A DNA stretch of 64,000 nucleotides from Auriscalpium vulgare (taxonomy: Eukaryota > Basidiomycota > Agaricomycetes > Russulales > Auriscalpiaceae). The notes beneath the pieces were generated by a model that did no database searches, was not told where the DNA came from, and was given only the letters and a program-made list of their open reading frames with translations. Shown here piece after piece: positions 19,595 through 41,531 of the stretch. Made by a program: the position numbers and the translations under genes. Each line of letters begins with the position of its first letter. Position 1 is the first letter of the stretch. Location: NCBI GenBank assembly GCA_019915015.1, contig JAHBBC010000009.1, positions 372,001 to 436,000 of the forward strand, in the 5' to 3' direction.

Positions 19595-20252
19595 TGATAG
19601 GTTCAGGCCGCGGGCAAGCGTGTAGCGAGACGTCGCGAGACGGGGAAGCAGCATGCGAGGCGCAGGGTCGCGGGAGCGGGGGTGATGGGAACGTGGTCCG
19701 GCGACCCAGGAGCAACCGGGACTGGCGACGGAACGGATCACCGGAACGGGCTAGATCGGGAGGGCTTAGCGACGTAGGTAGAGCCACTACTTAGGGAGCT
19801 GCGCGAGACGTAGCAACCCAATCAACCTGTGGGCGGCGCAAGCCACCCACACCCTTTACCTCACAGAAACTGTAGCCTGAGGCGCTACCAGACTTAGGAA
19901 GGAAGGACCCCACCGATGTGGGAACAGGTAGGCAGGCGGACAGGCAAGAGGGGGTGCGACGGCCCATAGGCGGACGCTTCGCACACGGGTGCGAAGCACT
20001 CGGAGGAGGATCCCGTAGAGGGCATCCCCAGGCAGGTGAGTGTTTAGTTTGGTGTTTAGGCGGTAGGAGGTGGCCCCGCACGACCGCGGGGAGGGCACGA
20101 AGCGCAACAGCGACACGAACACCTTTCCCCCTCAGCAAGACTAGTCACCCGGACTGGATCGCGACGTATAGGAGGCAGTGTTGGTGGTTGTTGTCCCTGT
20201 GAGGCACTCGCCGCACGCCTCGCTAGGGTCCGTCCCGGGTGATAGCGTATCA
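19595..20252 (+). repeat. gypsy 5' LTR
   Basis: 658 bp, TGATAG...GTATCA. Matches 32495-33152 base for base except at 20161. Contains one paired-hexamer motif (TAGCGA-GACG-TCGCGA, 19623-19638). Confidence 0.95.
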
Positions 20253-20255
20253 TTT

Positions 20256-20273
20256 TGGAGCCCACCGCGAGGG
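20256..20273 (+). other. gypsy primer-binding site
   Basis: Starts TGGAGCCCACCGCGAGG three bases after the LTR, the form expected of a site complementary to a tRNA 3' end (CCA). The tRNA was not identified. Confidence 0.6.
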
Positions 20274-20342
20274 GTATGGTGATGACGATCGTGTTCGAGC
20301 TTTAAAATCAGCCTCGTAGACGGCACCCGGTCGCTGATCAAC

Positions 20343-23300
20343 ATGGCGCCGAAACCCAAGATAGCCCACCTCCCAACGCGAACACAGCCGCAGAGGACCA
20401 CGAGGGCGGACGCTCGCAATACGTCGCGACAGGCGGCCATAGAGGCAGAAATCGAGGAACCACAAGACGAACAGGGGGAAGTCTCATCGCTATCAAGTCT
20501 GCCATCAGAAGAAGAGGATCCGCATGGACCGACCCTCAGTAGGGAGATCCGACGCGCCGGAGAGGACCCTAGGTCCCTGATCACAGGAGGGGATCGCGTC
20601 ACGATCGAGGGACTAGAAGGTTTGCTTCTGAATTCTGATGGTGGCGATAGCGACCATCACACACGGCATGATCCGGAAGGGGAATGCTCGAGGAACGAAC
20701 GGGTCAGTCCGGGATGGGGACGGGCCGTTTCCTTACAAGATAGGACTTCGCGAAACGTCGCGGAAGCTAGCAACAATCCCCAAGAAGCTCCATCAAGCCG
20801 TTCGAACCCCAGCAACCCAAAGTCGCCAACACAGTCAGGAATGAGTACACAGCAACAAGGAACAGGAACGGGTGGAGGAGGCGGCGGCGGAGGCGGAGGC
20901 GGTGGAGGAGGGGGAGGCGGCGGACAACAGGCAATACCGCCTCAGCCCAACGTCGCGCCAGTCGCAATGCCTACCCGCGGGGACCGCAACGCACCGTCTT
21001 TCAATCAGAAGGCCCGCGAGTTACCGCGTTACTTCGACGAGCTGAACCATCTCTTTGCCCGGGCTCAACTAGCGGATGATACGGCGAAGAAGGGCCATGC
21101 AGTGCGTTACCTAGACGTCGCGACGGCTGAGGAGTGGGAAGCGAGGCCGGAGTTTAAGGATCCCACCAAGACCTACCAAGACTTTCAGGACGCCATTGTT
21201 AAACTGTACCCGGGAGCCGATGAGGACCGCAAGTATACCATCGCGGACATGGACGCGCTCGTAGGCAGTCGGTACCGTCTGGGCATTGCGTCCGGCGGCG
21301 AGCTCAGCGAATTCTATCGGCAGTTCTTCGCGATCACCGACTTCCTGGTTAAGAAAAGCAGGATCTCGACCCGTGAGCGCGATATCGCGTTCCTTCGCGC
21401 TTTCCAGGACAGCCTCATGAACAGGGTGGCGACGAGACTGCAGATCAAATTGCCGGACCACGATAAAGAAACACCGTACCCCATGGCCGACGTGCTAGAG
21501 GCAGGAGAGTACGAGCTGAGGGGCACTCCCTCAATCGTACCAGCGGTCAGCGCAGGACCGGCAGTGGCGGTTGCAACGACGGAGCCTGTAATCAAAATAG
21601 AACAGTTTCAAGAAGCAATCAAAGCCGCGGTTGCCGAACAGTTCGCGCGGATGCTCGTCAACCAGGGGAACGGCGGAGGTCAGAGGGGTTATGGGGGTAC
21701 CTCGGGAACTCAACAGCCGCGCGCCACGCAAGGAAATCAAGGCGGACAGGGAGGGCCGTCAGGATGCCTTTTCTGCGGCCAAACGGGGCACTTCGTCAGG
21801 GAATGTATGGTGGTCCAGGACTACATCGCGACGGGTCGCGTATCTAGGGACCACAACAACCGGGTCGTTCTGAAGGGTGGAGGACTTATCCCGCTAGGAG
21901 AAGGCCCGCTGAAGCAGCGTGTGGATGCGTACTACGCCGGGAATCAACACGGACAGTCAGAAGCCATGATGCTGACGACGATGGACTACGAGCCAGTGCC
22001 GGCCAAAGTGCAGACGGTCGCCGGCCTAATCCAACTGACGCCGCAATTGACCGACGAAGACAGAATGACGGAGCTCCAGCAGGAGATGGCAGTGCTCCTG
22101 ACGGCCCGAGCGGAAAGGCAAGCTCAGAAGGAACGCCGGCAGGCCGCACTGGACGCGGGCGAGTTTCCCCAGGCAATAGGGCTGCTGCCTGGCGAGCGCG
22201 AAAGATCGCGACGAGTTCCAGAGGTGGTCATTCCGAAGAGGAAGCCGTTTACGCAAGCCAAGAAGCAGGTTTCCTTCGAGCCGGAGGCCGTCGACCGACC
22301 AGGGGAGACTGGGGATAGCGCAGACAAACAAAGGCAGGCCGACGAAGACACCACAGCGGGTGAGGAGCCGTTAACACCTCCGATCCACCCTTTCGCGAAG
22401 GTGCCCGACGCGACGTACATAGGGCCGGCAAGTTACCAACGAAGCGCGGGGCAGCGCAAGGCGGACCCAGCATACAATAAGGTCGCCCCGGTCCGCGACC
22501 CCGTAATAGCAAGTAAGGTTTATGAGAGGGCCATGAATGCGGAGGTCACCTTGACACAGAGGGAGCTCATGTCCATTGCCCCGGAAGTACGCGCTCAGGT
22601 TCGCAACGTGGTGACCCCTAAGCGGGTCCCAAACGAGGCAAGAGTACCAGTAGTCCAGGCGATGGTGGAAAGCGAACCAGAGCTCTTTCCGTTCGACTTT
22701 GACCAGGACGAAGGGGAAGGAGAGGACGAGAAGGTGGTGAGGGGATTCGCGGACCATATGCCCGAAACCTTTCTGCAAGCCCTGGGACACCAGCCAACGG
22801 AGTTGCCCGAGGGGACGCGTGTAGGAGAAGTCATTGTGGAGGTTCTGATGGGAGATCTAGGAGAAGCAGGAGAAGGGGAACCAGACCCTGAGCCGTTGGA
22901 AGTCGCCAAGGAATCGCTGGCCCTCCGTTCGATCTTGCCACTAGTCGACAACCAAGCGCACATCGAGGCAGTCGTGGATCCCGGGTCGCAGATTATTTCC
23001 ATGTCCGAGGACGTATGCCATTACCTCGGGCTGCATTACGATCCGAACGTTCGCCTGGATATGATATCGGCCAACAAAAGTCGCGATAGGTCGCTAGGCC
23101 TGGCTAGAAACGTCCCGATGAAGATTGGGGGTATAACGCTATACGTACAGGTGCATATCATCCGCAACCCGGCGTACGACATGCTCCTGGGGAGGCCCTT
23201 TGACGTTCTCACGGGAAGTACCGTGCAAAACTTTGCAGACGAGAGGCAGACAATCACGATCACGGACCCAAACACGGGAGTCATGGCGTCAATCCCCACT

Positions 23301-23366
23301 ATTCCACGCGGCCGCAAGCGCATCTCGCGAACCCAGAAGCAGGGGGTGGAGGGTTTTCGCGACTAG
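20343..23366 (+). CDS. gypsy Gag with zinc knuckle and aspartic protease
   Basis: 1007 residues. The N-terminus is acidic and disordered, with a poly-Gly run near residues 178-196. The retrotransposon Gag core lies around 220-380 (FDELNHLFARAQL, RYLDVATAEEW). A CCHC zinc knuckle (CLFCGQTGHFVREC, about 475-488) binds RNA. The C-terminal part is a retropepsin-like protease with active-site triad written DPGSQ (about residue 879, family usually DTGS or DSGS) and a later LLGRPF. Stop at 23364. A -1 slippery site just before the stop leads into pol. The first ATG after the primer-binding site is used. Confidence 0.92.
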   Translation: MAPKPKIAHLPTRTQPQRTTRADARNTSRQAAIEAEIEEPQDEQGEVSSLSSLPSEEEDPHGPTLSREIRRAGEDPRSLITGGDRVTIEGLEGLLLNSDGGDSDHHTRHDPEGECSRNERVSPGWGRAVSLQDRTSRNVAEASNNPQEAPSSRSNPSNPKSPTQSGMSTQQQGTGTGGGGGGGGGGGGGGGGGGQQAIPPQPNVAPVAMPTRGDRNAPSFNQKARELPRYFDELNHLFARAQLADDTAKKGHAVRYLDVATAEEWEARPEFKDPTKTYQDFQDAIVKLYPGADEDRKYTIADMDALVGSRYRLGIASGGELSEFYRQFFAITDFLVKKSRISTRERDIAFLRAFQDSLMNRVATRLQIKLPDHDKETPYPMADVLEAGEYELRGTPSIVPAVSAGPAVAVATTEPVIKIEQFQEAIKAAVAEQFARMLVNQGNGGGQRGYGGTSGTQQPRATQGNQGGQGGPSGCLFCGQTGHFVRECMVVQDYIATGRVSRDHNNRVVLKGGGLIPLGEGPLKQRVDAYYAGNQHGQSEAMMLTTMDYEPVPAKVQTVAGLIQLTPQLTDEDRMTELQQEMAVLLTARAERQAQKERRQAALDAGEFPQAIGLLPGERERSRRVPEVVIPKRKPFTQAKKQVSFEPEAVDRPGETGDSADKQRQADEDTTAGEEPLTPPIHPFAKVPDATYIGPASYQRSAGQRKADPAYNKVAPVRDPVIASKVYERAMNAEVTLTQRELMSIAPEVRAQVRNVVTPKRVPNEARVPVVQAMVESEPELFPFDFDQDEGEGEDEKVVRGFADHMPETFLQALGHQPTELPEGTRVGEVIVEVLMGDLGEAGEGEPDPEPLEVAKESLALRSILPLVDNQAHIEAVVDPGSQIISMSEDVCHYLGLHYDPNVRLDMISANKSRDRSLGLARNVPMKIGGITLYVQVHIIRNPAYDMLLGRPFDVLTGSTVQNFADERQTITITDPNTGVMASIPTIPRGRKRISRTQKQGVEGFRD
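23351..23357 (+). other. -1 ribosomal frameshift site between gag and pol
   Basis: In the gag frame the heptamer reads G-GGT-TTT, the X-XXY-YYZ form of a -1 slippery site. It lies six bases before the gag stop TAG at 23364. After a one-base slip the frame continues open into pol, which has no ATG at its start (first listed codon TTG 23372). Confidence 0.75.
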
Positions 23367-23371
23367 AGGAT

Positions 23372-26300
23372 TTGTTGGAGGACCAGGAGGAGGTAGGGCT
23401 GGTCGTGGGGTTCGAGCCCGATAAGCCTGATACTCTTAGAATGGAATCCCTGGTGTACCTCGAATCCTCGCCTACAATCGAAGATGTGCAGTCAGCTTAT
23501 TTGTCAGTGTGCGACCTACCGGAGGAATACGCGGGAGTGTTCGCGAAGCGAGCGGAAGAAGGAGAGGAAGAGGAGGAACGAGCAAGAGCAGGGACGTTTA
23601 TTTGGACGGCGGCAGACTGGGGAGACGGCGAGAGTGGGAGAGAAAGAGAGGAGGAAACGGACAGAGGTGAGCTACAGCCGACCGCGATGCAGCGCGAAGT
23701 CTTTGCGGCCACGAAGAAGCGTTACAAGCCAGCACACCTCAAGGTAAAGCCCATTCGTACGGACCTGCCGGAGCACTTCCGGATCCTCAGAGAGATCAGA
23801 GGGGACCCCCTGGCGGATATGCCGCCGCTCCCAGAGAAGCCACCGGACTTCGTACCCACGGGAAGGTACACCGCGGAACGTCGCGAACAATTTGACCGAG
23901 TCCACGACGGAGATTTCCTATGGCCGGAAGAAAGGAAGCTCATGCATGCGTTTATGTGCGCACAAAACGAGGCATTTGCCTGGGACGACTCGGAGCGGGG
24001 GCGCTTCCGAGAAGACTTCTTCCCCCCCGTCACAATACCAGTAGTTCCGCATCGGCCGTGGGTTCAGCGAAATATTCCGATTCCGCCAGGGATATACGAC
24101 AAGGTCATGGCGCTCATCAAGACCAAGATCGCCGCGGGAGTCTACGAGGACTCAAACTCGTCGTACCGCTCTAGGTGGTTCTGTGTGGTTAAGAAGGACG
24201 GGACCAGCCTCCGTATAGTCCATAGTCTGGAACCCCTGAATGCGGTGACCATCGCGCACTCAGGAGTACCCCCCTTCCCAGATCATTTGGCGGAGCAGTT
24301 TGCGGGGCGGCCGTGCGGGGGAATTCTGGACCTCTACGTGGGCTATGACGAAAGGAGACTAGATGAAGCCTCAAGGGACCTCACGACTTTCCAGACGCCG
24401 TACGGCGCAAAACGGCTGGTGACCCTGCCTATGGGGTGGACGAATTCCGTCCCGATCTTCCACGACGACGTGACCTTTATTCTCCAACCGGAAATCCCGC
24501 ATATTACGGTGCCTTTTATAGACGACGTCCCCCTGAAGGGGCCGGACTCGGACTACAGGACGGAAGGCGGAGGATACGAAACGATCCCCGGCAACAACGG
24601 CATAAGGCGGTTCGTATGGGAACACTTTAACAACGTTAACAGGGTAGTCCAACGAATGCGCTACTGTCATGGCACGTTCTCAGGATGGAAATCACAGCTG
24701 TGCGTACCAGAATTCTACGTGGTAGGGCATCGCTGCACACCGCAAGGAAGGATGGCAGACGAAGAAAAGGTCGCGAAGATTCGCAATTGGGGGCCGTGCA
24801 CGGACCTCTCAGACGTACGGGCTTTCTTGGGGACAGTCGGAGTCCTGCGCATCTTTATCCGTAACTTTGCGCACCGAGCCCATGCCTTGACACACCTGAC
24901 GAGGAAGGACGTCCCGTTCGAATGGGGACCCGAACAGTCGCGAGCTATGGAGGACCTCAAGGAGGCAGTCCTCGCATCACCAGCGCTCCTACCGATTGAT
25001 TACACGTCGGAGGCCCCCGTGATCCTAGCGGTAGACACCTCGTACATCGCGGTGGGTTTCCTATTGAGTCAGGCGGACCCCAACGTTCCCCAAGACAGGA
25101 AGAGACGCCGATATTCTCGATTTGGTAGCATCGCGCTAAACGATCGCGAAGCGCGGTTCTCGCAGCCCAAGCTGGAGCTCTATGGTCTTTTTCGAGCCCT
25201 GCGGGCCCTTAAAGTCTACCTGATAGGGGTGAGGAACCTGACCATTGAGGTCGACGCCAGGTATATCAAAGGCATGCTGGAAAATCCTGACCTCGAGCCA
25301 TCGGCCAGTATGAACAGGTGGATTATAGGCATCCTGATGTTCCATTTTGAGCTAGTGCATGTGCCGGGACTCTTCCACGGGCCCGACGGCCTATCCAGGA
25401 GGCGTAGGCAACCAGGAGACGCTCTGGAACAGGAAGACGACTTCGACGACTGGGTTGATGCGGTGTATGGTTTCGCACATATCGTAAACATGGTAGTCCC
25501 GAAGACAGCGCAAGAGAGAGCCTCGCGACGGCAAGATGGATGGACGGGGCCAGGAAGCATACCAGACGAACATGGGGCTGGTTCAAGCCAGGACGCGATA
25601 CGTCGCGAGGAGGCCCGGCGCTCCCACGATGAACCGGCCGACGTCTGGGCAACTACGGTCCAAATGCAACCCGCACCAGTACAGGACGCGACGTATCGCG
25701 ATGTTCCCAGATCAGACAAGGCTCATGAAGCTGACAAGCGGCTGGAACTAGTCAGGGACTGGTTAGGGACCCTGGCGCGGCCGGCGGACTTGACCGACGA
25801 ACAGTTCGCTCGTTTCGCTCGATACGCGCTCCAGTTCTTCAAGGATGGGGACCGCCTTTTCAAAAGGCACCACCAAGGCAGGCACCAACTCGTGCTGGGA
25901 GGAGACCGACGTATCGCGGTCCTCAAAGCAGCTCATGACGATGTCGGACACAAAGGCGTCTACGCGACGCGGATGATGCTGTTGGAGCGTTTCTGGTGGC
26001 CATACGTGGACGCAGACGTGGCCTGGTGGGTGAGAACGTGCCATATTTGCGAAACCCGACTAGTTCGCCACAGCCTGATACCGCCAACGGTGGCAACGCC
26101 GGCGAACCTTTTCGCAAAAATGTATGCAGACACCATGCATATGCCAGCAAGCGGCGGATTCAAATACATCGTGCAAGGACGCTGCTCCGTAACCCACTAT
26201 CCAGAGTGGAGAATGCTAAGGGCGGAGACGGCGGACGCCATCGCGAAATGGATTTTCGAAGACGTCTTGTGCCGGTGGGGCGCCCTGCGAGAAGTGGTCA

Positions 26301-27142
26301 CGGACAACGGCGCACCGTTCGTGTCGGCCTTGGAATCCCTGTCGCATAAGTATGGAGTCCGGCACATTCGAATATCGGGATATAATTCGCGAGCCAACGG
26401 AATAGTCGAGCGGTCTCACTTCGACGTACGTCAAGCGCTCTACAAGGCAGCCGATGGAAATGCTGCAAAATGGTCAACGGTCGCGTACTCGGTATTCTGG
26501 TCGGACAGGATAACGATCAGGCGGAGGATGGGCTGCTCGCCATACTTCGCGGTAACAGGAACGCAGCCGCTAATGCCGCTGGATATCATCGAGGCTTCAT
26601 ACTTGATGCCTCCGCCCGAGTCTCTACTGTCTTCCACAGACCTCATAGCGCGCAGGGCAATGGCCCTACAAAAGAGAAAAGCCCAGTTAAGGACCATCCA
26701 CGACAAAGTCTTTGAAGCGCGACGTATCGCGGCGGTAAAATTTGAACGTGACCACGAAGCGACGATTCGCGACTACAATTTCAAGAGAGGCGACTTGGTC
26801 CTCCTACGGTTCACGCGGTACGAGAAGTCATTAGATCGAAAAATGCTTCCGCGCTACGATGGACCGTTCGTGGTAATTGGCCGACGGAAAGGAGGACCTT
26901 ACGTGCTTGCGGACCTCCACGGTGCGCTCTTCGACCGACCGGTCGCGGAGTTTCGCGTCCTGCCTTACTTCGCGCGAACGAACATTGCGCTGCCAGAGTT
27001 GCCCGAATTTCTGGACGTCCCACAGTCCAGGGTGGACGAGCTACTTCATGAAGATAGGCAGGATCACGATGCCATTCATGAAGAGGAAGCAGACGACCCC
27101 ACCAGGGAAGACGATGACAAGGACGACGAGATCACCGTCTAA
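23372..27142 (+). CDS. gypsy Pol: reverse transcriptase, RNase H, integrase
   Basis: About 1256 codons in the -1 frame relative to gag, so made as a Gag-Pol fusion. RT core begins near RWFCVVKKDG; catalytic residues are in LDLYVGY and FIDD (about residue 381). RNase H starts with LAVDTSYIAVG (about 552). Integrase has an H2C2 finger (H855 region to CHIC), catalytic D in YADTMHM, D in VTDNGAPF and E in GIVERSH, the D-D-E triad. A GPF/GPY-type module follows (RYDGPFVV, GGPYVLADL), and an acidic tail. Domain order RT-RH-IN marks Ty3/gypsy. No stop or frameshift seen. Confidence 0.93.
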   Translation: MLEDQEEVGLVVGFEPDKPDTLRMESLVYLESSPTIEDVQSAYLSVCDLPEEYAGVFAKRAEEGEEEEERARAGTFIWTAADWGDGESGREREEETDRGELQPTAMQREVFAATKKRYKPAHLKVKPIRTDLPEHFRILREIRGDPLADMPPLPEKPPDFVPTGRYTAERREQFDRVHDGDFLWPEERKLMHAFMCAQNEAFAWDDSERGRFREDFFPPVTIPVVPHRPWVQRNIPIPPGIYDKVMALIKTKIAAGVYEDSNSSYRSRWFCVVKKDGTSLRIVHSLEPLNAVTIAHSGVPPFPDHLAEQFAGRPCGGILDLYVGYDERRLDEASRDLTTFQTPYGAKRLVTLPMGWTNSVPIFHDDVTFILQPEIPHITVPFIDDVPLKGPDSDYRTEGGGYETIPGNNGIRRFVWEHFNNVNRVVQRMRYCHGTFSGWKSQLCVPEFYVVGHRCTPQGRMADEEKVAKIRNWGPCTDLSDVRAFLGTVGVLRIFIRNFAHRAHALTHLTRKDVPFEWGPEQSRAMEDLKEAVLASPALLPIDYTSEAPVILAVDTSYIAVGFLLSQADPNVPQDRKRRRYSRFGSIALNDREARFSQPKLELYGLFRALRALKVYLIGVRNLTIEVDARYIKGMLENPDLEPSASMNRWIIGILMFHFELVHVPGLFHGPDGLSRRRRQPGDALEQEDDFDDWVDAVYGFAHIVNMVVPKTAQERASRRQDGWTGPGSIPDEHGAGSSQDAIRREEARRSHDEPADVWATTVQMQPAPVQDATYRDVPRSDKAHEADKRLELVRDWLGTLARPADLTDEQFARFARYALQFFKDGDRLFKRHHQGRHQLVLGGDRRIAVLKAAHDDVGHKGVYATRMMLLERFWWPYVDADVAWWVRTCHICETRLVRHSLIPPTVATPANLFAKMYADTMHMPASGGFKYIVQGRCSVTHYPEWRMLRAETADAIAKWIFEDVLCRWGALREVVTDNGAPFVSALESLSHKYGVRHIRISGYNSRANGIVERSHFDVRQALYKAADGNAAKWSTVAYSVFWSDRITIRRRMGCSPYFAVTGTQPLMPLDIIEASYLMPPPESLLSSTDLIARRAMALQKRKAQLRTIHDKVFEARRIAAVKFERDHEATIRDYNFKRGDLVLLRFTRYEKSLDRKMLPRYDGPFVVIGRRKGGPYVLADLHGALFDRPVAEFRVLPYFARTNIALPELPEFLDVPQSRVDELLHEDRQDHDAIHEEEADDPTREDDDKDDEITV

Positions 27143-27183
27143 AAAGTACCGCCCAGCACTACGGCGACTGAGGACAGTCGATA

Positions 27184-27199
27184 TTTCAGTTGGGGGGAG
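27184..27199 (+). repeat. internal copy of the polypurine-tract region
   Basis: TTTCAGTTGGGGGGAG here is identical over 16 bp to the sequence at 32476-32491 beside the 3' LTR. It sits just after pol, where the polypurine tract of an ordinary gypsy element would be. Confidence 0.7.
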
Positions 27200-27614
27200 G
27201 ATTAGACGGTGGTATTTAGGACTGAACAGCTGGAAGTACGGATGGAGACGAGTCAGGACGATAAGTCGAGGTCGCGAGCGCTAGCGAAGCTCGGACTGGG
27301 CAGGCACCGACTAAGGCTTCAAGGGTCTGGAACAAGGCTGAGGTCGCGCCGGAAACGCGATAGGACACGCTCACACTGTGACACAAGCAATGGACTCTAT
27401 TCACAACATAGCAGGATAGCGAATTCTATGTACACAGCAAAGAAGTAGCGACGGATAGCGAACAACTATGAACAGACCGATAACGAGCGGACAACACGAC
27501 AGCGAGACGCCGAAACCCCCACCTAGGACACGAGGAACGCCCCCCGCATCGAAGCACCAAGGCCCTCTGCTGTTGAAGCAGGGGCGACTCCTTTTAAAGA
27601 AGGCTCGCAAGCGG

Positions 27615-29315
27615 CTAAGCGGCGGGCGCGGGGTCAGCGGGACCATCAGCCGCGGCGGAGGGCGGCGTGCCGACATCCTCGAAGGAGGGAGCGGCGGCGG
27701 TAGGCATGGTAGGGCCGGGGGCAGGGTCCGACGCGGGAGGAGCGGCAGAGGCGAGCGGCGAGAAGGGCGCAGCGGGAGCAACCGGAGGCACGGGGGAAGG
27801 AAGGCGAGAGGCGCGACCAACGAGAGGCACGACGGCGGCGCTAAGCAGCGGGAGGGAAGAGGCGATGAGAGCCGACGAGGGTGGCGCGAGGAGGAGGCGC
27901 GAGGCAGGCCTGGCCGGCGCGGGAGAAGCGGCGCGCGACGCGGGGGGAGCAGGGAGAGGGATGCGGCGCGGCGGATCGAAGGGGCCAACCTGCGGCGAGA
28001 CGAGGCCCCCGGCAGGCGCAGGGAACGCGGGGTCGCCGAGCTGCTGCAGGGTCCGCCAGACCCAGTTCCGCTCAGCGACGATGCCGCGGGCCCGGGCGTC
28101 GAGCGTCGCGTAGTTGACGCTGATGGTGTTGAGCTCCTCCGTGAGCGCGTTGTAGGTCCGGAAAAGCTGCGGCGGGGAGTCGTGGCGGAGGATAGGGACG
28201 GCGCCGGCAGGGCCGGGGTGGTCGGCCCAGTCGAAGGCGGAGGACCGGGGACGGACATGGATGCCGGCAGGGTCGACATCCTGCGAGACTCCGTCGCTGC
28301 CCACCACGTAGAAGTGCGTCCCGCGGACACCGTCGTCGCACTTGTGGTGGCCCACGAAGCAGCGATGGCACTGGCGGCCGCTGACGTCCGTGAAGAAGCA
28401 CGTGGGGTGGGAGTCCATCGTGGCGCAGCGGTAGCAGGGGGCGGAAGCCTGAGGGTCGGAGTGTGAGCGGCGCAACACGACGGACAAGAAAAGGGCGACG
28501 TACCTGAAGGCGGCGGCCCGGGAAGGTGTCAGCGACGGGGATCTTGGCGCCCTTGACGGAGGTGGAAGGGTCGGCGGCGGGCGCGGGGGAGCCGGCCTCG
28601 GAAGAGGGGACAGTGGCGGCGGGCGGAGGCACGAGGGAGCCGGAGGGGACGTTGGCAGGGCGCTTGGAACTGCGGACGGCTTTGCCCTTGCCCTTCGACT
28701 TGGCGGCGGCGGGGACTGATCGGGGGGCGGGGAGTTTGGTGGCGCCGCGGGTGCGCTGCGCGACGGGCTCCTGCGGGTCCCCCGCCTCATCTAGCTCGTC
28801 GACCTCGGCCTCGGCGTCAGCCTCGGAGGGGGCGGACTCGCGGTTGCGCTTGGTGGGCGGCGGGGAAGCGCGGGCGGCGGCGCGGTGAGGCGTGGAGGAG
28901 ACCGGGGGGCGGACAGAAGGCGCGGGGAGGGCACTGTCGGCGCGGGCCCGCTTGCCAGCCTGACGGGAGAGGGGAGCGGCGACGGGAGTGGAGTAGGGGA
29001 TGGCGGGTGAGGACGGCGTGGGGGAGGGGCCGGAGGACGGCCAGGCGTCGACAACGGCGGACACGGCCCCGATCCTGTCCAGCACCTCGGACGGCGGGGG
29101 GTCCTCCCCCAGCACCTCAGCATAGGCGGACTGGACACAAGGGAGGGTCAGCAGAGCGTCGGGAGCGAGAGGCCGTGGGCACTCACCGTGGCCGACTCCC
29201 AGTTCGCGGCGAACTCGCCGTAGTGGGCGGAGTCGACTGTGGGGAGGGAGGCGACGAGCGCTTCTACGGCGGACAGCCGTTTCCTGAGGTTGATAGGGCG
29301 GGAGAACGCAGACAT
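27615..29315 (-). CDS. gypsy accessory gene 1, Zn2Cys6-like cluster protein (antisense)
   Basis: Three exons, 29315-29187, 29130-28504 and 28448-27615, all joined in phase 0 by GT-AG introns, 529 residues. Begins MSAFSRPINLRKRL with a short helical domain; a long charged linker carries basic patches (KSKGKGK). At the start of exon 3 is a cysteine cluster C-x2-C-x8-C-x9-C-x2-C-x6-C (CYRC...CHRC...KC), close to Zn(II)2Cys6 spacing. A helical segment LTEELNTISVNY follows, then an Ala/Pro tail. It lies opposite to gag-pol, between pol and the 3' LTR, with paired-hexamer motifs at 29379 and 29497 upstream. DNA binding is inferred from the cysteines. Not a standard retroelement gene. Confidence 0.72.
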
Positions 29316-29594
29316 GGCCAGGGAAGGGGGGAGATAGGGAGAGGTGAGGGGAGGAAAGAGAGAGACGGAGAGGTCGAGGCGCAACGCGTCGCGTTAAGAC
29401 GGGGCGCCGCGCCAGCGTGTGGGTTTTTGCTTCCGACGTGGAAGCAGAGCGGGCCCGCCGGGCCGCGACAGGTGCGGCGCTTACCTTCACACGGCTTAGC
29501 GAGCGTTCGCGCGCGAGTCAAGAAGAAGGGATAGGGAACGGAATGGCATTACTGGGCCCTAAGGGCGCCTTGGGCAAATTACAGGAATCGCTCG

Positions 29595-30777
29595 CTACGC
29601 GGGCGCACCGGACCCAGACGCACCATTGGGCGCGGGAGTCCGGGCGCGGTTACCCCCATTCCTACGACCAGCCCGTCGACTCAGGGCATCAGGAGGCCTC
29701 GGGCCCACGACCTCAACAAGGTTGGGGACCCCCCACGAGAACGCGATAGAGCCGCGGCGGATGACTCGGTGAGTAAGCGGCGGGAAGGGAAGGGCGGTAA
29801 GCATACGGCGCATAGGACCGGCACCGGCGAGGTGGTCGAGGACCGCGGCAACTTCGCAGGCATCGTACAGCAGCTTTCCCGCGGTGCCTTCGAGGCGAGT
29901 GACGGCGTGGCGCAGGTGGCTGGCGTTCAATTGGTCCGCCCAAACGAAGTCGCGAAGCTCCGCGACCAACTTGAGGCCGGGAACGAGATAGTCGGCGGCT
30001 TCACGGACGTTCGCACGATGGGCAGCCTGCAACGAGGGACTCGCGGCCGCAAGGAAGTCGAGGACGCCAATGTCGCGGGGGTGGGTCATTCCGATCACGG
30101 CGCGGTTCAAGGGGAGCATGAGGGCCCCGACCAGCCCGTCGGCGTGGTCGAGGTCGTCACTCAAACGATCGAGGTCGCGAAGGAATAACTCGGCAACACG
30201 GGTGGCAAGGCCGTCGGGACGGGGGGCAAACTCGGGGCCGAACAGCGCTGCCAAGTTGACCTCGAAAGTTGCCCGGCCGTGAAGTTGGTGACGGTACAGC
30301 AACCAAACGGAGCGCTCCACCAGGTGGGCCAAGGAGTCCACATGGACCACGTGAGGAAGCAGAGCGACGCTGGGTGGCTGCCCCGGGGCGTTGTCCCCTC
30401 CGAACGGAGTATTTCCTACGATATTCGCGCGAATGGGGGCGGTTTGTTCGAACGTTTCGGGAAAGCGCTCCGCTAGGTAGGAGAGCGTCGAGACGACGGT
30501 CATGGACGCGAGGGCCGGTAGGGTAAAATGCGACGTCTCGCGATGGTCCTGCTGAAAAGGGGGGAAGAAGCGAAGACAACGTCAGTACGAGGCCGGGGTG
30601 AGGGAAAAGAGGGCCGCGGGACGACGCACCAATAGGTCGGAGATCTCCTGAAGCCAGGCAACGGCGGCCGCGGGAAATGAGGAAGCGTCGGCACCAGGCA
30701 AGGGCACCTCAACCGGATGTATCAACAGCTGGTACAGCCGGAAACGCGAAAACGCGCGGAGTAGGACGGCCTGCATG
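29595..30777 (-). CDS. gypsy accessory gene 3, unknown protein (antisense)
   Basis: ATG at 30777 (MQAVLLRAFSRF); one intron starts GTACTG after LTPAS and ends TTTCAG before QDHRETSHF; then a long exon through MTVVSTLSYLAERFPETF to 29595. About 380 residues, mostly helical by composition (LVERSVWLLYRHQL, DAEVA-like repeats of hydrophobic residues), ending in a basic Arg-rich tail. No known domain. Three paired-hexamer motifs lie 110-245 bp upstream (30893, 30956, 31008). A start further upstream cannot be excluded. Confidence 0.6.
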
Positions 30778-31117
30778 TGGAGGAGGTAGTCGGACGGACT
30801 GGGGCGTTGAGGGTTTTTTTTTGGAAAAGGCCATCGTCGCAGCCCCCTCATATAGGCGGCGCGAGTAGGGAAAGAGGCACACCATCGCGGCGTCGCGATA
30901 CAGCGCGAAGACCAAAACACGAGGGTCTCGCCGGAGTTCCGGCCAACGTGGGTTATCGCGACAGATCGCGACCCAGACGGAGCCTCCGGCATGGGCCCAG
31001 GAGCTTATCGCAAGGCATCGCGAAACGTGGCACAGGGACAGGGGGAAGCCGCACATGGCTCCTGGTTCCATTTCAATAGCTATGGAACATTCTACAGACA
31101 TTGGCCCGGGAATATAC

Positions 31118-32366
31118 CTATTCCTCGCGCTCCATCAGAAGCTCGATCACCTCCCCCTCCTCGACTTCTTCCGAGCTGGCGATGGGCGGCGGTATCTCCC
31201 CGGCGTAGGTAGGAGACGCGGAGGGGGCCGTCGGCGCTGGTACCGTGGGGTGCGCGGGGAAGGGAAGAGGGCCCGGCCGGTCCGAGGGATGGACTATGGC
31301 ATCGAAGCCTAGGGGTATCTCAGCTATGGCTTGGGAGGAGGAGATGTGCGAGAGGCGCGCAGAACTGATCTGCTCGATGGCGCGAATCGAGGCCACGCTG
31401 ATATCCTGGACCAGGAAGTCTGCGGGCTGGAGGTTGGCCAGGAGGCGGGACCCTAATCCCCATGCGTCCAGCATCCCGCCCATACAGGTTGCCATCGCGG
31501 CCCAGCGCATGTCGAGGCGATCCAACACCAGTGGCCAGTCCGCCCAAATATCGCGAAACGTGTCGAAGGCCTCGGAAATGGTGGTAAAGTCCCGTAACAT
31601 ATCCACCGAGTCCTCCGCGAGGCCCCCCAATAGGTAGTACACCACGCCCGTGGTGAGGCGGCCCGCGTAGGCACGAGAGTGGGGGGAGCTGGAGGCACCA
31701 CGGACGTGGTAGGCCAGGGCGCGGCACACGGCGTCTTCGCGGGTAATAACAAACATCCCATGGACGGCCCGGGCGTCGAAATCACGTAGGAGCCAGCTCT
31801 GCATCCCCTGAGGACGCAGGGTGGGGAAGGCGCCATGCAACTCCGTGATTTCATGGAGGTAGGATTCGACAGAACCGTCTCCGAAGTAGTACACGGTCCA
31901 GAGCCCAGCCTCCACGATGGTGATCAAGACGTGGAGTTCCGCGTCGGTAGCGTCGGCAGGGAAAGGGGAGAACATCTGGGACCACCGCGGGCTGGCGCGC
32001 GCTGAGTCGGGGAGGGTACGCATGAGGGTGCCCTCGAAGCGCTGGGCGAGAGGGGCGGACGCTGGAACGAGCTTCACCATGAACTCGAGGATCGGCGAGG
32101 TGAAGTGGAAGGCAAGATCGCGCAGGCTGCGGGACGCGCGGATTGAAGAAAGGGTCTGGAATTGAGTTCATCATCAGCCAAGCCGGGAAAAGACGCGGTC
32201 GGGGACCAGCACGCACCACGAGCTGGTTGACTTTGTCGGCCCACTCTAGACGTAACGCAACCTCCCGTTCGGCATCCCCAAGGTCAAAACCAGCGAAGGG
32301 GGCCTGCGTCAACAGGCGGAGGAGGTCGAGGTTGTCGGCGGTGGCAGACGCTGCGGGGAGGGACAT
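31118..32366 (-). CDS. gypsy accessory gene 2, unknown protein (antisense)
   Basis: First exon starts at 32366 (MSLPAASATADNLDLL) and ends at a GTGCGT donor after VNQLV. The second begins after TTCCAG with TLSSIRASRSL and runs to 31118. About 400 residues. Many aromatic and leucine residues suggest a globular helical protein (YLHEITELHGAF, VVYYLLGGLAED). It ends in an acidic tail rich in Glu. No recognisable domain. The promoter has TATAAGG at 32433-32427 and a perfect paired hexamer at 32409-32424, on the 3' LTR side. It is the most 3' of the three antisense genes on the plus map. Confidence 0.65.
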
Positions 32367-32408
32367 CGCGGGACAGAAATCGGCAAAGGGATGCTACAAG
32401 CGACGTTA

Positions 32409-32433
32409 TCGCGAAAGGTCGCGAGCCCTTATA
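32409..32433 (-). promoter_or_regulatory. promoter of accessory gene 2
   Basis: On the minus strand TATAAGG (32433-32427) lies about 60 bp before the ATG, directly next to TCGCGA-AAGG-TCGCGA (32409-32424). Confidence 0.55.
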
Positions 32434-32482
32434 TGCCGCTTCCGCACGGCTCCTGGCAACTGGGGACAGTTGCAGTTTCAGT

Positions 32483-32494
32483 TGGGGGGAGAAA
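32483..32494 (+). other. gypsy polypurine tract
   Basis: TGGGGGGAGAAA ends exactly at the 3' LTR, the expected site for plus-strand priming. Confidence 0.75.
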
Positions 32495-33152
32495 TGATAG
32501 GTTCAGGCCGCGGGCAAGCGTGTAGCGAGACGTCGCGAGACGGGGAAGCAGCATGCGAGGCGCAGGGTCGCGGGAGCGGGGGTGATGGGAACGTGGTCCG
32601 GCGACCCAGGAGCAACCGGGACTGGCGACGGAACGGATCACCGGAACGGGCTAGATCGGGAGGGCTTAGCGACGTAGGTAGAGCCACTACTTAGGGAGCT
32701 GCGCGAGACGTAGCAACCCAATCAACCTGTGGGCGGCGCAAGCCACCCACACCCTTTACCTCACAGAAACTGTAGCCTGAGGCGCTACCAGACTTAGGAA
32801 GGAAGGACCCCACCGATGTGGGAACAGGTAGGCAGGCGGACAGGCAAGAGGGGGTGCGACGGCCCATAGGCGGACGCTTCGCACACGGGTGCGAAGCACT
32901 CGGAGGAGGATCCCGTAGAGGGCATCCCCAGGCAGGTGAGTGTTTAGTTTGGTGTTTAGGCGGTAGGAGGTGGCCCCGCACGACCGCGGGGAGGGCACGA
33001 AGCGCAACAGCGACACGAACACCTTTCCCCCTCAGCAAGACTAGTCACCCGGACTGGATCACGACGTATAGGAGGCAGTGTTGGTGGTTGTTGTCCCTGT
33101 GAGGCACTCGCCGCACGCCTCGCTAGGGTCCGTCCCGGGTGATAGCGTATCA
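32495..33152 (+). repeat. gypsy 3' LTR
   Basis: 658 bp, identical to 19595-20252 except A at 33061. The change is G to A at a CpG and destroys one TCGCGA hexamer. Confidence 0.95.
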
Positions 33153-33999: not shown

Positions 34000-36900
34000 T
34001 AAACGAGCACGCGACGCGCCTGCTCCGAGGCGATTTTATCGGCGTATACTACCTTGCCTCAACACACCTCCACCATGCTCCACACCCAACGCAATCCCCG
34101 AGACGCTCACGTCGACCAAGAGTCTAATGAGACATTCCAAAGGGATACTAAAGTGTACGCCATAACGGCAAAAGAACGGTGGCCAATGGGCAATGGAACG
34201 ACCAACAGGTCCGCCATATGGGCAAAGCAATCGTGGCTACATGGCCTCCTGTGCCTTTGGGTATTTAGCGGGTGCTTCGCATACGTGACGCTCTTGCAGC
34301 GAGGCTGGTCTCGCTCACTTGCGTCTTATGCAGAGCTGCTGTGCGTAACTGTCCAGGCATGCGATCCGCATGTTCGATCGTCCTGCTACGAGTTATTTGC
34401 TCTGGCGCACTTTACATCCGCTGCTTTGTTTCTGATACGGCGCTTCCTCATCCCCATCTCTCATCCGTTGAAGGCACGCACGAATGCGTACGTAGGCGTA
34501 CCGATAAGACACTCTACAAGGGATGATTCGTGCATTTTTGCCAACGCCTATGATCGCCTACAACCCTCTGAACTACCTACGCTCGTCGGCGGGGGGCGTG
34601 GTAAACAGGTAACGCTGTGGACCGCCGACGAACTTCAGCCATACCTGTTGCCGGGAACGGCACCCCTGAGTGCTGACAGATTCTATGAATTCTTTGACCA
34701 CTTTACTGACGACAAGACGCCGTCCGTGACGGAAGAGGACAACATCCGCACCTCTGTTCCAATACAGATGCTGACGCGTACTAATCGAAACAACCTCAGG
34801 CGCGTTTGCACGCAGCACGAAATAGGCCATCTCGCCAACGTAACCGTCTCTGATATGCGGGTTCTAATCGGTGACCATGTACATACTGACGCATGTAACC
34901 ACCATATAACGCTGTTCAAGGCTGCTGGGCTGCCAAGTACGAAACGGAAATCGAAGCCGGTAGAAGACAGCGCATACGGAGCTACGCCTGTGTTTCCACC
35001 GAGCCCTCTGTCGGACGACCTAATGCACCTGATTATATCAGGGTTTTGCTCGGAGTTGGACGATGTGCATATCAAAGAAGCCGCGTGCTCAGTTTACGCG
35101 TGCCTATATCGCGTGAAGGATCTCTTACCGTTATCGGATAACGCGTTCGAGACATCGCTATTGGAGTCTGAGAGCATATTTATCACGCGTAAGGAAAGGC
35201 AGAGCGTCGCTGAGGAACCGCGAGCCCATGACGGGCCCGTAATGATCGGAACGCCTTTCGTATGCAAGTCCTGCTACGGGCCGCTGAAAAAAGGCCGCAT
35301 GCCTCCCAGTGCTTTAGCAAACGGAAACTGGTTGGGAGATGTACCCCCTCAGCTTCAAAATTTGTCTTGGGCTGAAAAAATGCTCGTTTCAAGAGTGTGC
35401 CACAACCGGTCTGTTGTGCGGGTCGTGTCCTCAGGAATGCACAAAATGAGCGCGAACGCCGTCTTCTTCGCAACTCCTACTGCGAAGGTATACGCCGCCC
35501 TTCCACCCCCAAGAGAAGACCTGGATGAGGTATTGGGTTTCGTGTACATAGGTCCCACAAAACCGACAGATAAGGATCTTCGCCGTACGCCTTTATTAGT
35601 TAGGCGGAACAAGGTCGCTTGTGCCCTGGAATGGCTGAAACGCAACCATGCGGACTACAGAGATCTCAATATCTCATACGAGAACCTGGCTCAGTATGAG
35701 GAAGAGGGCGTGCCCGTGGTTACACAGTATAAATTATCAACAGACGGCGAGACTGGGGAAAACCGACCAGTGTATAACGCCGAAGACACGACAACGTCGG
35801 AAGGCGACTGCGCGTTCACGATACACGGACTGACTGGTGACGAGCTGGAACACAAGTCTACCGCACAACTACGCGGCATAGCATTGAAACACTTGATGCA
35901 GGGCGGGAAGGCCTTGGGAATTGGGCATTCAGAAAAGCCAATGTCCTTGTATGCCAATCCGCAACTATACCCTCAAATATTCCCATGGTTGTTCCCGTAC
36001 GGGTTGGGTGGGGTGGGTAACGTTAATGGCGTCAGACGCGTCAACGACAAGAAACGTATACGTGACTTGTTGCTATACCATGATAAACGATTCCAGCAGG
36101 AGCCTATGTTTCCGCTAATCGCACTGAACCATCAGCAAATCAAACAAGGTGGTTTAGGAGGATTTCTTCTAGCTAAGCAGGCTAATTTCGATCACATCAA
36201 GGAACGTCTGAGCAAAGTAGATACGGCTGTTCTCAACGGATTGATTGAACGTCTCTCCAAAGGTGAGCGGATCACAAACAAGACAGAGATGGAACAGAAT
36301 TGCTATCAGGTGTTAAACGACCTTGATTACGTCGCGGCGAACGTACCAGGGTCGAAGACAAGTAAGAAAAATATGCGGACAGAGATATGGTCCCTCATTT
36401 CATATCTTGGGGCCCCTTCATGGTTTATCACATTCTCTCCTTCGGACGTCAACCATCCGATCGCATTATATTACGCTGATAAAGATGCCGCAATATATCC
36501 TACATTCTACAGCCAGGACGAGCGCGTCCGCCTCATTGCCAACAACCCCGTGGCCGGTGCCAAGTTCTTCAACCTGATGGTGGAGCTCTTTATAAAACAT
36601 GTCCTCGGTGTCGACGCGGACCACGATGGGGTATACGGTAAAACAGCAGGATACTACGGAACTGTAGAACAGCAGGGTCGTCTCACGCTTCACTTGCATC
36701 TGTTGCTGTGGATCGCGGGCGCTCCGACGCCACAGGAAATCCGGGATAAAGTGCTTGATCCGGAGTCAGATTTCCAGAGAGAGATTATAAAATACTTGGA
36801 GAGCGTACACGCGGGCCAACTGTCGACAGGAACGATAGAGAACTTTGACAGCTATATCAAAGAGGCTCAAGGCGAGATAGACTATATTAACCCCGCACTC

Positions 36901-39900
36901 AATTTGCCAGTTGCCCCTCCGGCCATGTGCTATACCCACACCGTGCGGTCTGTACACAACTGTCATACCTGTGTGAAATACGGCAAATGGAAAGCGCTAT
37001 ATGAGTCAACTGTAGATGACTTGCTAGTTAGGTTGAACAAGCACAAACATCACGCCGGCTGTATCAATCAAAAGTACGACACCTGCAAATCGCGCTTTCC
37101 CAGAGAGACCTTTCCTACTACCACAGTAGACCCAGACAACGGCAGTATCACTATGAAACATGGCGAGTCTTGGCTCAATACCTTCACGTACGTACTCACA
37201 TACGTCTTACGTTGCAATTCCGATGTGAAAAGTCTGCTGTCTGGAACCGCAATTAAATCCGTCATAGCGTATGTAACGGATTATATTACCAAGACCCCTT
37301 TGAACACTCACGTTATGTTTGAAGCTGTGAGATCCATATTTGAAAGAAACGCCATAATAGATGATAGCTCTTTGTCAAGCACACAGAAGGCCAAAAGAAT
37401 CATGGTACAGGTGGTCAACAATTTGACCTCAAAGCAGGAGACGGGAGGTCCGATGGCTTCCTTGTACCTTCTACAGCATCCGGATCACTACACGAAGCAT
37501 CAGTTTGCCAAGCTGTACTGGAAAAATTATGTCAACGAGGTCGCTCACTTTTGGCGTCTTACTAAGGAAGAGTCTGAAACATCCGACCCAACGATTGTAG
37601 TCAAGAACATCAAAGGTTATATTGTAGGCCAATCTAACACAATGGATTACACACATAGACCTGCATCATTGAAGGATATGAGCCTACACACTTGGACCAT
37701 GCTATGCTCCAAAGTCTTAGTCCGAAAACGCAAAGAGAAACGGACGTCCGATGACCGGAAAAGCGACTCGGATGGCTCGGAGCATGATGGCTTAGACTCT
37801 GACTTGGACTCAGACGATGAAGGCCTGCTTTTAGCGGCAAATGATCCAGACTCTGATTATGAGCCAACACGGTCAGTTCCAAAACCATCCAAGGCAAAGT
37901 CGACACCTCACAGGTTCCCTTCGACGCACCCGCAAAGTCAAAGTCACGCCGTACGTATTAGTAAAGAAGCGAAAGTGCCGAATTTCATAGGAGGCGCAAT
38001 GCCCAGGCGAGATCAAGGCAATATCGAGGAATACTGCATGGCGATGCTTGTTTTGTTTAAACCCTGGTGTCACCCTGCGGACCTTAAAGAAGAGCACTTG
38101 TCCTGGCAGGAGACGTTCGAACGCCATACCTTTTCTTCTCCGGAAAAACGGTTTATGGACTTTATGCAAATCCGCTATGAATGCAACGACGCCCGGGACG
38201 ACTATGCAGCCAGGAGGAAGGCCGGAATAGCGGAAGGCAACTTAAGTCCAGATATAATCAACCAATTCATAGATGATATGGAACCCCAGGCCGGTGTGCA
38301 TGATATTGACGATACTCTGAATGTGGAAGAACTCGTTCAACAGTTAGAAGCTCAATGGCAAGTTATAGGTAAAAGGACGTTAAATTGTAGGAGTCAAATG
38401 GATCAGATTGAGAAAGTGATGTTGGAGTGCGGGTGGTTAGATCGTGCTACAGAAGACGCCCCGGATCATGACATGGAGCCTCATTTCATGGGTGGTGACA
38501 GGGCTGCGAGTTACTGGAAGAACGTCTTGGCTGTCGAAAAACAGGCAATCATTGATAGCAGGATTGCACAAGCTGAAAAGGCAGCAGGCCGGAATTCGGC
38601 TGAACATGCCGACCCGAAATCCGCTGACGCCGTCAAGCTTGTTGATCTTGCCTACCTTCAAGAGGCACATCACCCAGGTACGCAACAAGAGCAAGATGTG
38701 GCGACCGAAACCGCAAAGTTGTTTACGCTTAATACTGAACAAAAACGTGCATTCCGTATCGTTGCGAATCATGCGTTAGATCCTGCATCGGAACAGCTCA
38801 AGATGTATCTCGGCGGAATGGGCGGAACAGGAAAATCACAAGTCATAAAAGCCTTGATGTACTTCTTCGAAAAACTGAGCCAAGACTACAAGTTTCTTGT
38901 TCTTGCACCAACTGGGGCTGCTGCCGCTTTGGTATCCGGTTCAACCTATCATTCGGTGCTGGGCATCAACGGATTTGGTGTTAAACAGTCTACAGCTGCC
39001 ATTAGTGAAGTGCGCGATCGAATAAAGCATGTGCAGTATGTGTTTCTAGATGAGATCTCCATGGTCGACTGTGAGAGCTTGTATAATATTAGCGCCCAGA
39101 TGTGCTTGGCCATGCAAATATACGATGTCCCGTTTGGAGGCAAAAATATGGTATTTGCCGGCGATTTCGCACAACTACCGCCACCGTCAACAAGCCCAGC
39201 CTTATACTACAAAACGGCAGATTCAACCTTGCATACTACGCATAGCCACAAAGCGCAGAAAGCTGCAATGGGAAAGGCCACATGGCATCAAACAACTCAT
39301 GCGGTGATCCTCAGACAAAACATGAGGCAGAAAACACAATCAGAGGAGGATGCCAAGTTTCGTACGGCACTCGAAAACATGCGCTACAAAGCTTGCACAG
39401 ATGAGGACATAGCGCTCTTACGAACAAGGATTGCAGGCCAGCGACCGGAACAGCCCCACATTAATGACCCTCAATTCAGATACGTCTCAATAATCACAGG
39501 CCTCAACTCCCATCGTGACAGGTTGAATGAATTGAACAGCAAACAGTTTGCTAAGGATAACGGAAGGCAACTGGTCAAGTTATACTCCGTTGATAAGTGG
39601 AGAGGTCGTGCTACGGGATCTGCTGATCATGAGCAATCCAGAAAACTTAAAAATGTAATCGATCCCTTGCGCACTGTGAATTCTATTGCACTAAGTGCTC
39701 AACAAACACTTTGGAATCTACCGCATGCGGTCACCAACAATCACCCGGGTATTCTATCACTGTGTAAAGGAATGCATGTAATGATCAAGAAAAATGAAGC
39801 CACAGAGGTTGGTGTGACCAATGGTGCCGAAGGAATTGTCACAGGGTGGAAGGCATTTGACATTGGCAACAAACGTCAGGGGTTAGATACGCTGTTTGTC

Positions 39901-41500: not shown

Positions 41501-41531
41501 AGTCCTCAAGGAGTGTCTACACGCGCCGGAC

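Follow-up and report, generated by a model that had tools for sequence, protein, structure and literature searches.

Dispersed TCG dyads with family-typical spacing in gypsy retrotransposons of Auriscalpium vulgare

Why does a retrotransposon carry the same paired word in its long terminal repeat (LTR), inside its genes and in the DNA behind them? The question is raised by a gypsy element in contig 9 of Auriscalpium vulgare, of which positions 372001-436000 (64,000 nucleotides, below called the window) were analysed together with the surrounding genome of 51.6 Mb in 96 contigs. An earlier note on this DNA had placed the element at 19595-33152, and these limits hold: the LTRs of 658 bp differ at one base and are flanked by a 4-bp target duplication, GCGC. 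The note had further described pairs of TCGCGA hexamers, scattered through the element at a fixed pitch of 10 bp, and had ascribed them to a protein that marks the element's DNA. In what follows, fam1 is the family of this element and fam2 to fam6 are five related families of the same genome. The pairs occur in excess at one fixed spacing, independently of protein sequence and codon use and under no RNA-pairing constraint, and the families have spacing codes of their own, which goes well beyond what the note had found. The best overall explanation, to which we assign a probability of about 0.5, is that they are dimer-binding sites, spaced according to family and read by a protein of the elements, for example the product of an antisense gene, accC.

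Counts for the element refer to 19595-32494 (12,900 bp), i.e. with the 3' LTR left out, and a dyad is defined as TCGCGA-N4-TCGCGA with at most two mismatches in total. By this definition there are 29 pairs at pitch 10 and 0-9 at the other pitches from 6 to 60. Dinucleotide shuffles of the element (n=300) yield 1.38±1.21 pairs at pitch 10, with a maximum of 5, and the 50.8 kb of window flank contain 2 dyads. Twenty-one of the pairs had been listed in the note and eight are newly found. All 23 listed sites are present in the sequence, although the one given as 23082 is at 23081 and that at 29379 has three mismatches; 32523 is the 3' LTR copy of 19623. The fixed pitch is equally evident with the degenerate pattern of the note, which gives 21 pairs as compared to 3, 3, 2 and 4 at pitches 8, 9, 11 and 12, and 1.85±1.36 in dinucleotide shuffles (maximum 7, n=300). 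Among all 4096 hexamers at pitches 6-40, TCGCGA at 10 ranks first, and the runners-up listed are mostly its own shifts. The exact hexamer occurs 34 times in the element and has a partner at 10 bp in 24 cases, as compared to 0-4 at each of the distances 7, 8, 9, 11, 12 and 13 bp. Both hexamers hold about 1.0-1.9 bits of information per base, symmetrically and with the highest values at the inner bases. The spacer holds at most 0.27 bits per position, which reduces the preference for NACG or CGTA that had been seen in it to a mild tendency. TCGCGA is a palindrome of two TCG half-sites, so that the direct pair consists of two palindromes at a 10-bp pitch. The dyads are spread evenly along the element (Kolmogorov-Smirnov p=0.79). 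A motif fitted to fam1 finds 32 sites, as compared to 6 in a reversed control, and genome-wide the exact TCGCGA-N4-TCGCGA occurs 125 times and the reversed pattern 12 times.

The protein sequence does not explain this excess, as had been argued from the differing codon phases. With synonymous-codon shuffles (n=300), the 7 pairs observed in gag compare to 0.81 and the 11 in pol to 0.75, and in each gene 0/300 shuffles reach the observed number. The dyads occupy codon frames 0, 1 and 2 in the proportions 1/3/3 in gag and 3/7/1 in pol.

Is the code a peculiarity of fam1? Six families contain dispersed pairs of one half-site, TCG, at a family-typical spacing, which agrees with the family-specific motifs predicted by the note's analogy with the VANC proteins of plant transposons. 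The code of fam1 is TCGCGA doubled at 10 bp. In fam2 (reference L025 1493-9001 with L015 up to 7187; 69% nucleotide identity to fam1 in pol, 858-bp LTR), TCGCGA at pitch 10 was not found in the hexamer scan. When all dyads of 3- and 4-mers were scanned, GTCG-n11-CGAC emerged (24 against 5.6), and the fitted motif GTCGS-N9-SCGAC has 44 sites, with 2 in the reversed control. Its relative fam3, whose pol shares 85% of its amino acids with that of fam2, shows TCG-N1-CGA, for which the counts on both strands amount to 100 against 16. For fam4, fam5 and fam6, 7-8 kb was read, from near the start of pol. The code of fam5 is TCGCGA, of which 18 copies are present in the part of the element that was read (4.8 kb); a 10-bp partner is present for 7/18, and 0-2 have one at neighbouring distances. 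That of fam4 is TCG-N1-CGA plus direct repeats of TCG at 10 bp, partly in a dense LTR array, and fam6 has three exact GTCGS-N9-SCGAC in pol against 0.4. Genome-wide, TTCGSCGAA occurs 576 times (259 reversed) and GTCGSN9SCGAC 1062 times (664 reversed); of the 68 plus-strand places of exact TTCGSCGAA listed for contig 1 (to 2.92 Mb), 42 are in three fam3 copies. As separate observations, the fam4 LTR (L037 3741-5008) holds a directional array of TCGC in 10-bp steps, with TCG-N7-TCG 19 times on the plus strand and 2 times in the opposite sense, and fam6 (L036) has a mild excess of ATCGGA/TCCGAC words.

The codes were compared in a matrix of 11 coding segments and nine patterns (99 tests, 500 synonymous shuffles each), in which enrichment is seen for the spacing typical of a family and, for the most part, not for those of the others. 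For TCGCGA the counts are 10 against 2.5 and 11 against 2.4 in fam1, and 15 against 2.8 in fam5; for TCG-N1-CGA, 12 against 3.3 and 13 against 2.8 in fam3; for TCG-N11-CGA, 8 against 2.7 and 7 against 2.5 in fam2 and 10 against 4.6 in fam6; and for TCG-N7-TCG, 11 against 3.0 in fam4. Exceptions to which we attach no reading are N2 in fam2 pol (p 0.012) and N0 in fam6 pol (0.036), and the copia and Helitron controls are flat except for N10 (p 0.050) and N11 (0.054) in copia. A maximum statistic over all 3-mer dyads exceeds all 40 shuffles for fam1 to fam5; the copia element, the Helitron and the left flank of the window give no signal beyond 40 shuffles. The inverted TCG partner is offset by 3 in fam1 and fam5, by 4 in fam3 and fam4 and by 14, i.e. 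4+10, in fam2 and fam6, and repeats are at 10. In our reading, this would bring the half-sites onto one face of the helix in every arrangement.

How the codes changed can be judged from the phylogeny and from alignments of the sites. The pol tree contains the clades {fam6,(fam4,fam5)} and {fam1,(fam2,fam3)} with full support; the code differs within both sister pairs, and N0, N1 and N11 are each present in both clades. Gap-free alignment to fam2 is possible for 14/18 fam1 coding sites and 19/22 fam3 sites, and most sites were therefore not made by insertion. Of these, fam2 retains 0/14 and, in the gag-pol alignment, 0/19, whereas fam3 retains 1/15 fam1 sites; with a looser pattern, fam2 sites are found in 5/36 cases in fam3 and 5/32 in fam1. 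Sites have been remade by substitution, at non-homologous places. The note had expected conservation in related copies. Sister families lack the sites at homologous places, and the fam1 copies are too nearly identical to provide a test: eight pol copies show 0-11 differences in 3771 bases, and the 16 variable positions all fall outside the 11 sites (16 bp each) in pol.

Antisense genes (accA, accB and accC) lie between pol and the 3' LTR, and the prime candidate for the reader is accC. Its cluster, C-x2-C-x8-C-x9-C-x2-C-x6-C, has six cysteines that are invariant in six aligned rows from fam1, fam2, fam3 and fam6 (4/6 families), and in fam6 the gene is likewise within the element. A GT-AG intron has one common place in fam1 to fam3, and the ratio of nonsynonymous to synonymous substitution (dN/dS) is 0.21-0.33 among fam2 subtypes. 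The Zn2Cys6 cluster of fungal factors has the spacing C-x2-C-x6-C-x5..12-C-x2-C-x6..8-C, to which accC conforms except for a second gap of 8-11 where 6 is expected. The cluster had no match in Pfam, including PF00172, at E up to 10. A search of PDB with the cluster model (E up to 10) gave GAL4 as the sole match, with a non-significant E of 7.6, and a profile search of PDB listed two chains, each of Pho7 or of its locus, again not significant (E 1.4 and 1.6); with a second profile, a different zinc finger took first place. Pho7 binds TCG(G/C). Structure and profile searches hint, faintly and with no significant match, at GAL4-type factors. Within fam2, copies with pol 99% identical to the reference have accC clusters that are only 73-86% identical, an example being C14:567154-570039 with C14:565524-565691. 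In this family, accC behaves like a cassette that is exchanged and diverges rapidly, in elements that are uniform elsewhere.

These results can be combined as follows. A sequence-specific protein would bind the dyads on double-stranded DNA and recognise, as a dimer, the half-site TCG. TCGCGA, in which TCG and CGA stand back to back, would be one dimer site, and in fam1 the binder would occupy a pair of these palindromes spaced by one turn of the helix. By keeping TCG and altering the spacing, each related family would obtain its own DNA address, spread over LTR, gag, pol and 3' region. The binder would be encoded by the element, most likely by accC with its six-cysteine cluster and helical stretch, and families that lack accC would be served in trans by the protein of a relative. 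Binding would mark the element's own DNA, for example as a protection from silencing or as a means by which the element regulates its expression and copy number. The steps of this scheme are not equally secure. That the dyads are protein-binding sites is very probable, and this part of the note's interpretation, that a sequence-specific protein recognises them on double-stranded DNA, is supported by the shuffles, the hexamer scan and the lack of RNA compensation described below. That the binder is encoded by this clade of elements seems rather probable; accC is its candidate at somewhat less than even odds, and anti-silencing in particular, suggested by analogy, is a tentative choice of function. 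Equally tentative is a wider proposal, in which the spacings would be orthogonal codes for self-recognition, private to each family and read by a cluster protein that is encoded antisense and changes fast, with sister families driven to different spacings and gene-poor relatives borrowing readers in trans; the different spacings may then prevent sisters from answering to each other's regulator. In fam4 and fam5 the 3' LTR follows about 250-270 bp after pol and leaves no room for accC there; no other result weighs as heavily against accC as a general reader. In fam6 the maximum statistic stays within the 40 shuffles, and its code rests on the preset N11 pattern.

Explanations that do without a dedicated element protein have to be weighed as well. 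Instead of selection for binding, mutation or base composition might have produced the pairs, through codon bias, GC content or very small insertions; the element is rich in GC, which reaches 70% at 28-30 kb, and TCG and CGA are common in it. Such an origin is very improbable, since shuffles that preserve dinucleotide or codon biases do not yield the excess, which rules out a codon or composition artefact, and most coding sites align gap-free between families. Still less probable is that the pair is read in RNA. Since TCGCGA is palindromic, TCGCGA-N4-TCGCGA could form a hairpin with a 6-bp stem and a 4-base loop, and both the self-complementarity of the perfect site and the strict spacing would suit this. 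However, in 27 variant sites the 40 deviating base-pair positions comprise 35 broken, 5 wobble and 0 compensated pairs, and this absence of compensatory changes largely refutes the hairpin; each half-site varies on its own, as would be expected of contacts with a protein. Perfect 6-bp stems number 8 at loop 4 as compared to 2-4 at each other loop size from 3 to 8, and the N0 code of fam5 and the N1 code of fam3 are unable to fold such a hairpin.

Two other proteins could take the place of the reader. If the binder were part of Gag or integrase, the sites could serve complementary DNA handling, nuclear import, integration or packaging. This would account for a code in all six families, also in the two that have no antisense genes on the 3' side, and it would agree with the CCHC-like knuckle in Gag and with the even spread of sites over the transcribed element. 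An RNA ligand nevertheless fits poorly with palindromes of 0- or 1-bp spacer (fam5, fam3, fam4) and with hairpin pairing that is not kept in fam1, and the zinc domain of integrase is the sole DNA-binding fold that Pfam finds in Gag or Pol, so that we regard this option as unlikely. A host transcription or silencing factor that helps or targets the elements is improbable too. TCGCGA does fit the sites of APSES/StuA (WCGCGW) and MBF (ACGCGT), and one half-site is common to all families, but sister families in one nucleus differ in spacing, each without that of the other, TTCGSCGAA is concentrated in fam3 among the contig 1 matches listed, and dyads are scarce in the window flank.

For the preferred reading, sites bound by an element-encoded dimer, the nearest analogy is self-marking as by VANC, the anti-silencing proteins of the VANDAL transposons of Arabidopsis, which are Mutator-like (MULE) DNA transposons; VANC proteins contain DUF1985. 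Both systems have short family-specific motifs that are dispersed in the element's own DNA and differ between related families (in fam6 only for the preset N11), and both have an accessory gene as candidate reader. The present elements are fungal LTR retrotransposons instead of MULE transposons, their sites are in gag and pol besides noncoding DNA, and their code changes via the spacing of one half-site. The candidate is a predicted antisense six-cysteine protein, and a Pfam scan of gag, pol, accA, accB and the accC cluster stretch gave no match to DUF1985. Fungal Zn2Cys6 (GAL4-type) factors share with accC a six-cysteine cluster followed by a helical stretch, and with the dyads a three-base half-site at family-specific spacing and orientation, inverted or direct; accC differs by its longer inner loop, the lack of a Pfam match and an insignificant structural similarity. 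The DNA uptake sequences of Neisseria and Haemophilus are likewise self-recognition words that run across coding DNA in several frames, in dialects that differ among relatives, although they concern cellular genomes and uptake instead of transposons. Plant and fungal LTR retrotransposons with extra or antisense open reading frames resemble fam1 in the position between pol and 3' LTR and in antisense orientation, and we know of no dispersed family-specific dyad code in them.

If the reader is indeed encoded by the element, LTR retrotransposons would share a self-DNA recognition for which we can otherwise name only plant MULE transposons, and the persistence of near-identical recent copies despite silencing (one LTR mismatch in 658 bp) would be explained. 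Whatever the reader is, be it Gag, integrase or a host factor, the dyads constrain retrotransposon coding sequence, and to our knowledge such dense, spacing-specific dyads within gag and pol are known nowhere else. Site and candidate reader exist here in six natural versions, one for each family of a single genome, and the spacing differs within the sister pairs.

The coordinates are collected in Table 1. Besides its LTRs and target duplication, the element has the Ty3/gypsy order of domains in its Pfam matches (PR, RT_RNaseH_2, RT_RNaseH, Integrase_H2C2, i.e. protease, reverse transcriptase/RNase H and integrase). Related proteins number 1341, the best named relatives of its pol are from Agrocybe and Mycena, and a search for relatives in viral contigs gave 21 pattern matches and 0 true relatives. 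A pol search gave at least 37 matches at 98-100% identity, which points to recent activity of fam1. The accA product has no Pfam match and a predicted helical structure (predicted local distance difference test, pLDDT, 53), and the likeness of accB to its fam2 and fam3 counterparts is seen only in a MAFFT alignment, with no BLASTP match.

Table 1 Features of the gypsy element in window coordinates. Dyads are strandless and are those of the pitch-10 scan with at most two mismatches
Feature	Coordinates	Strand	Location or basis
Dyad TAGCGAgacgTCGCGA	19623..19638		LTR
Dyad TCGCAAtacgTCGCGA	20414..20429		gag
Dyad TCGCGAaacgTCGCGG	20748..20763		gag
Dyad TCGCGTtcctTCGCGC	21385..21400		gag
Dyad TCGCGAcgggTCGCGT	21826..21841		gag
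Dyad GCGCGAaagaTCGCGA	22196..22211		gag
Dyad TCGCGAaggtGCCCGA	22393..22408		gag
Dyad TCGCGAtaggTCGCTA	23081..23096		gag
Dyad GCGGGAgtgtTCGCGA	23531..23546		pol
Dyad CCGCGAtgcaGCGCGA	23682..23697		pol
Dyad CCGCGGaacgTCGCGA	23871..23886		pol
Dyad TCGCGAagatTCGCAA	24771..24786		pol
Dyad ACCCGAacagTCGCGA	24928..24943		pol
Dyad ACGCGAtacgTCGCGA	25593..25608		pol
Dyad ACGCGAcgtaTCGCGA	25686..25701		pol
Dyad TCGCCAtactTCGCGG	26537..26552		pol
Dyad GCGCGAcgtaTCGCGG	26717..26732		pol
Dyad AAGCGAcgatTCGCGA	26757..26772		pol
Dyad TCGCGGagttTCGCGT	26943..26958		pol
Dyad TCGCGAgcgcTAGCGA	27272..27287		3' region
Dyad TAGCGAcggaTAGCGA	27446..27461		3' region
Dyad TAGCGAgcgtTCGCGC	29497..29512		3' region
Dyad TCGCGAagctCCGCGA	29950..29965		3' region
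Dyad ATGCGAcgtcTCGCGA	30528..30543		3' region
Dyad TCGCGAtacaGCGCGA	30893..30908		3' region
Dyad TCGCGAcagaTCGCGA, exact	30956..30971		3' region
Dyad TCGCAAggcaTCGCGA	31008..31023		3' region
Dyad TCGCGAaacgTGTCGA	31551..31566		3' region
Dyad TCGCGAaaggTCGCGA, exact	32409..32424		3' region
5' LTR (658 bp)	19595..20252	+	One mismatch to 3' LTR; flanking GCGC duplication
gag + aspartyl protease (1007 amino acids), CCHC-like knuckle	20343..23366	+	PF13650, PF13975; alignment
pol: reverse transcriptase/RNase H, integrase zinc-binding domain (1256 amino acids)	23372..27142	+	PF17919, PF17917, PF17921
accC exon that opens just ahead of the six-cysteine cluster; a helical stretch follows downstream	27615..28448	-	Cysteine alignment
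accC predicted 55-nucleotide GT..AG intron, just upstream of the cluster	28449..28503	-	Splice sites shared with L015, L024, L032
accB (302 amino acids)	29595..30503	-	MAFFT alignment with fam2/fam3 accB
accA main open exon (helical protein)	31118..32080	-	26-34% amino acid identity to fam2/fam3 antisense open reading frames
accA possible upstream exon	31851-32393	-	May lie there
3' LTR (658 bp)	32495..33152	+	LTR comparison

Some further observations concern the element and its surroundings. The sole difference between the LTRs, at 20161 and 33061, changes TCGCGA in the 5' LTR to TCACGA in the 3' LTR, a kind of change that is typical of methylated CpG, here as a single event. In L022, near 4388, a fam2 copy has an internal deletion by which pol runs straight into the distal 3' region. 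The gypsy element is immediately followed, at 34054-44612, by a Helitron-like open reading frame (DUF6570, Helitron_like_N, PIF1) and a copia-type open reading frame, and an NB-ARC/TPR protein is encoded at 50285-52879 on the minus strand.

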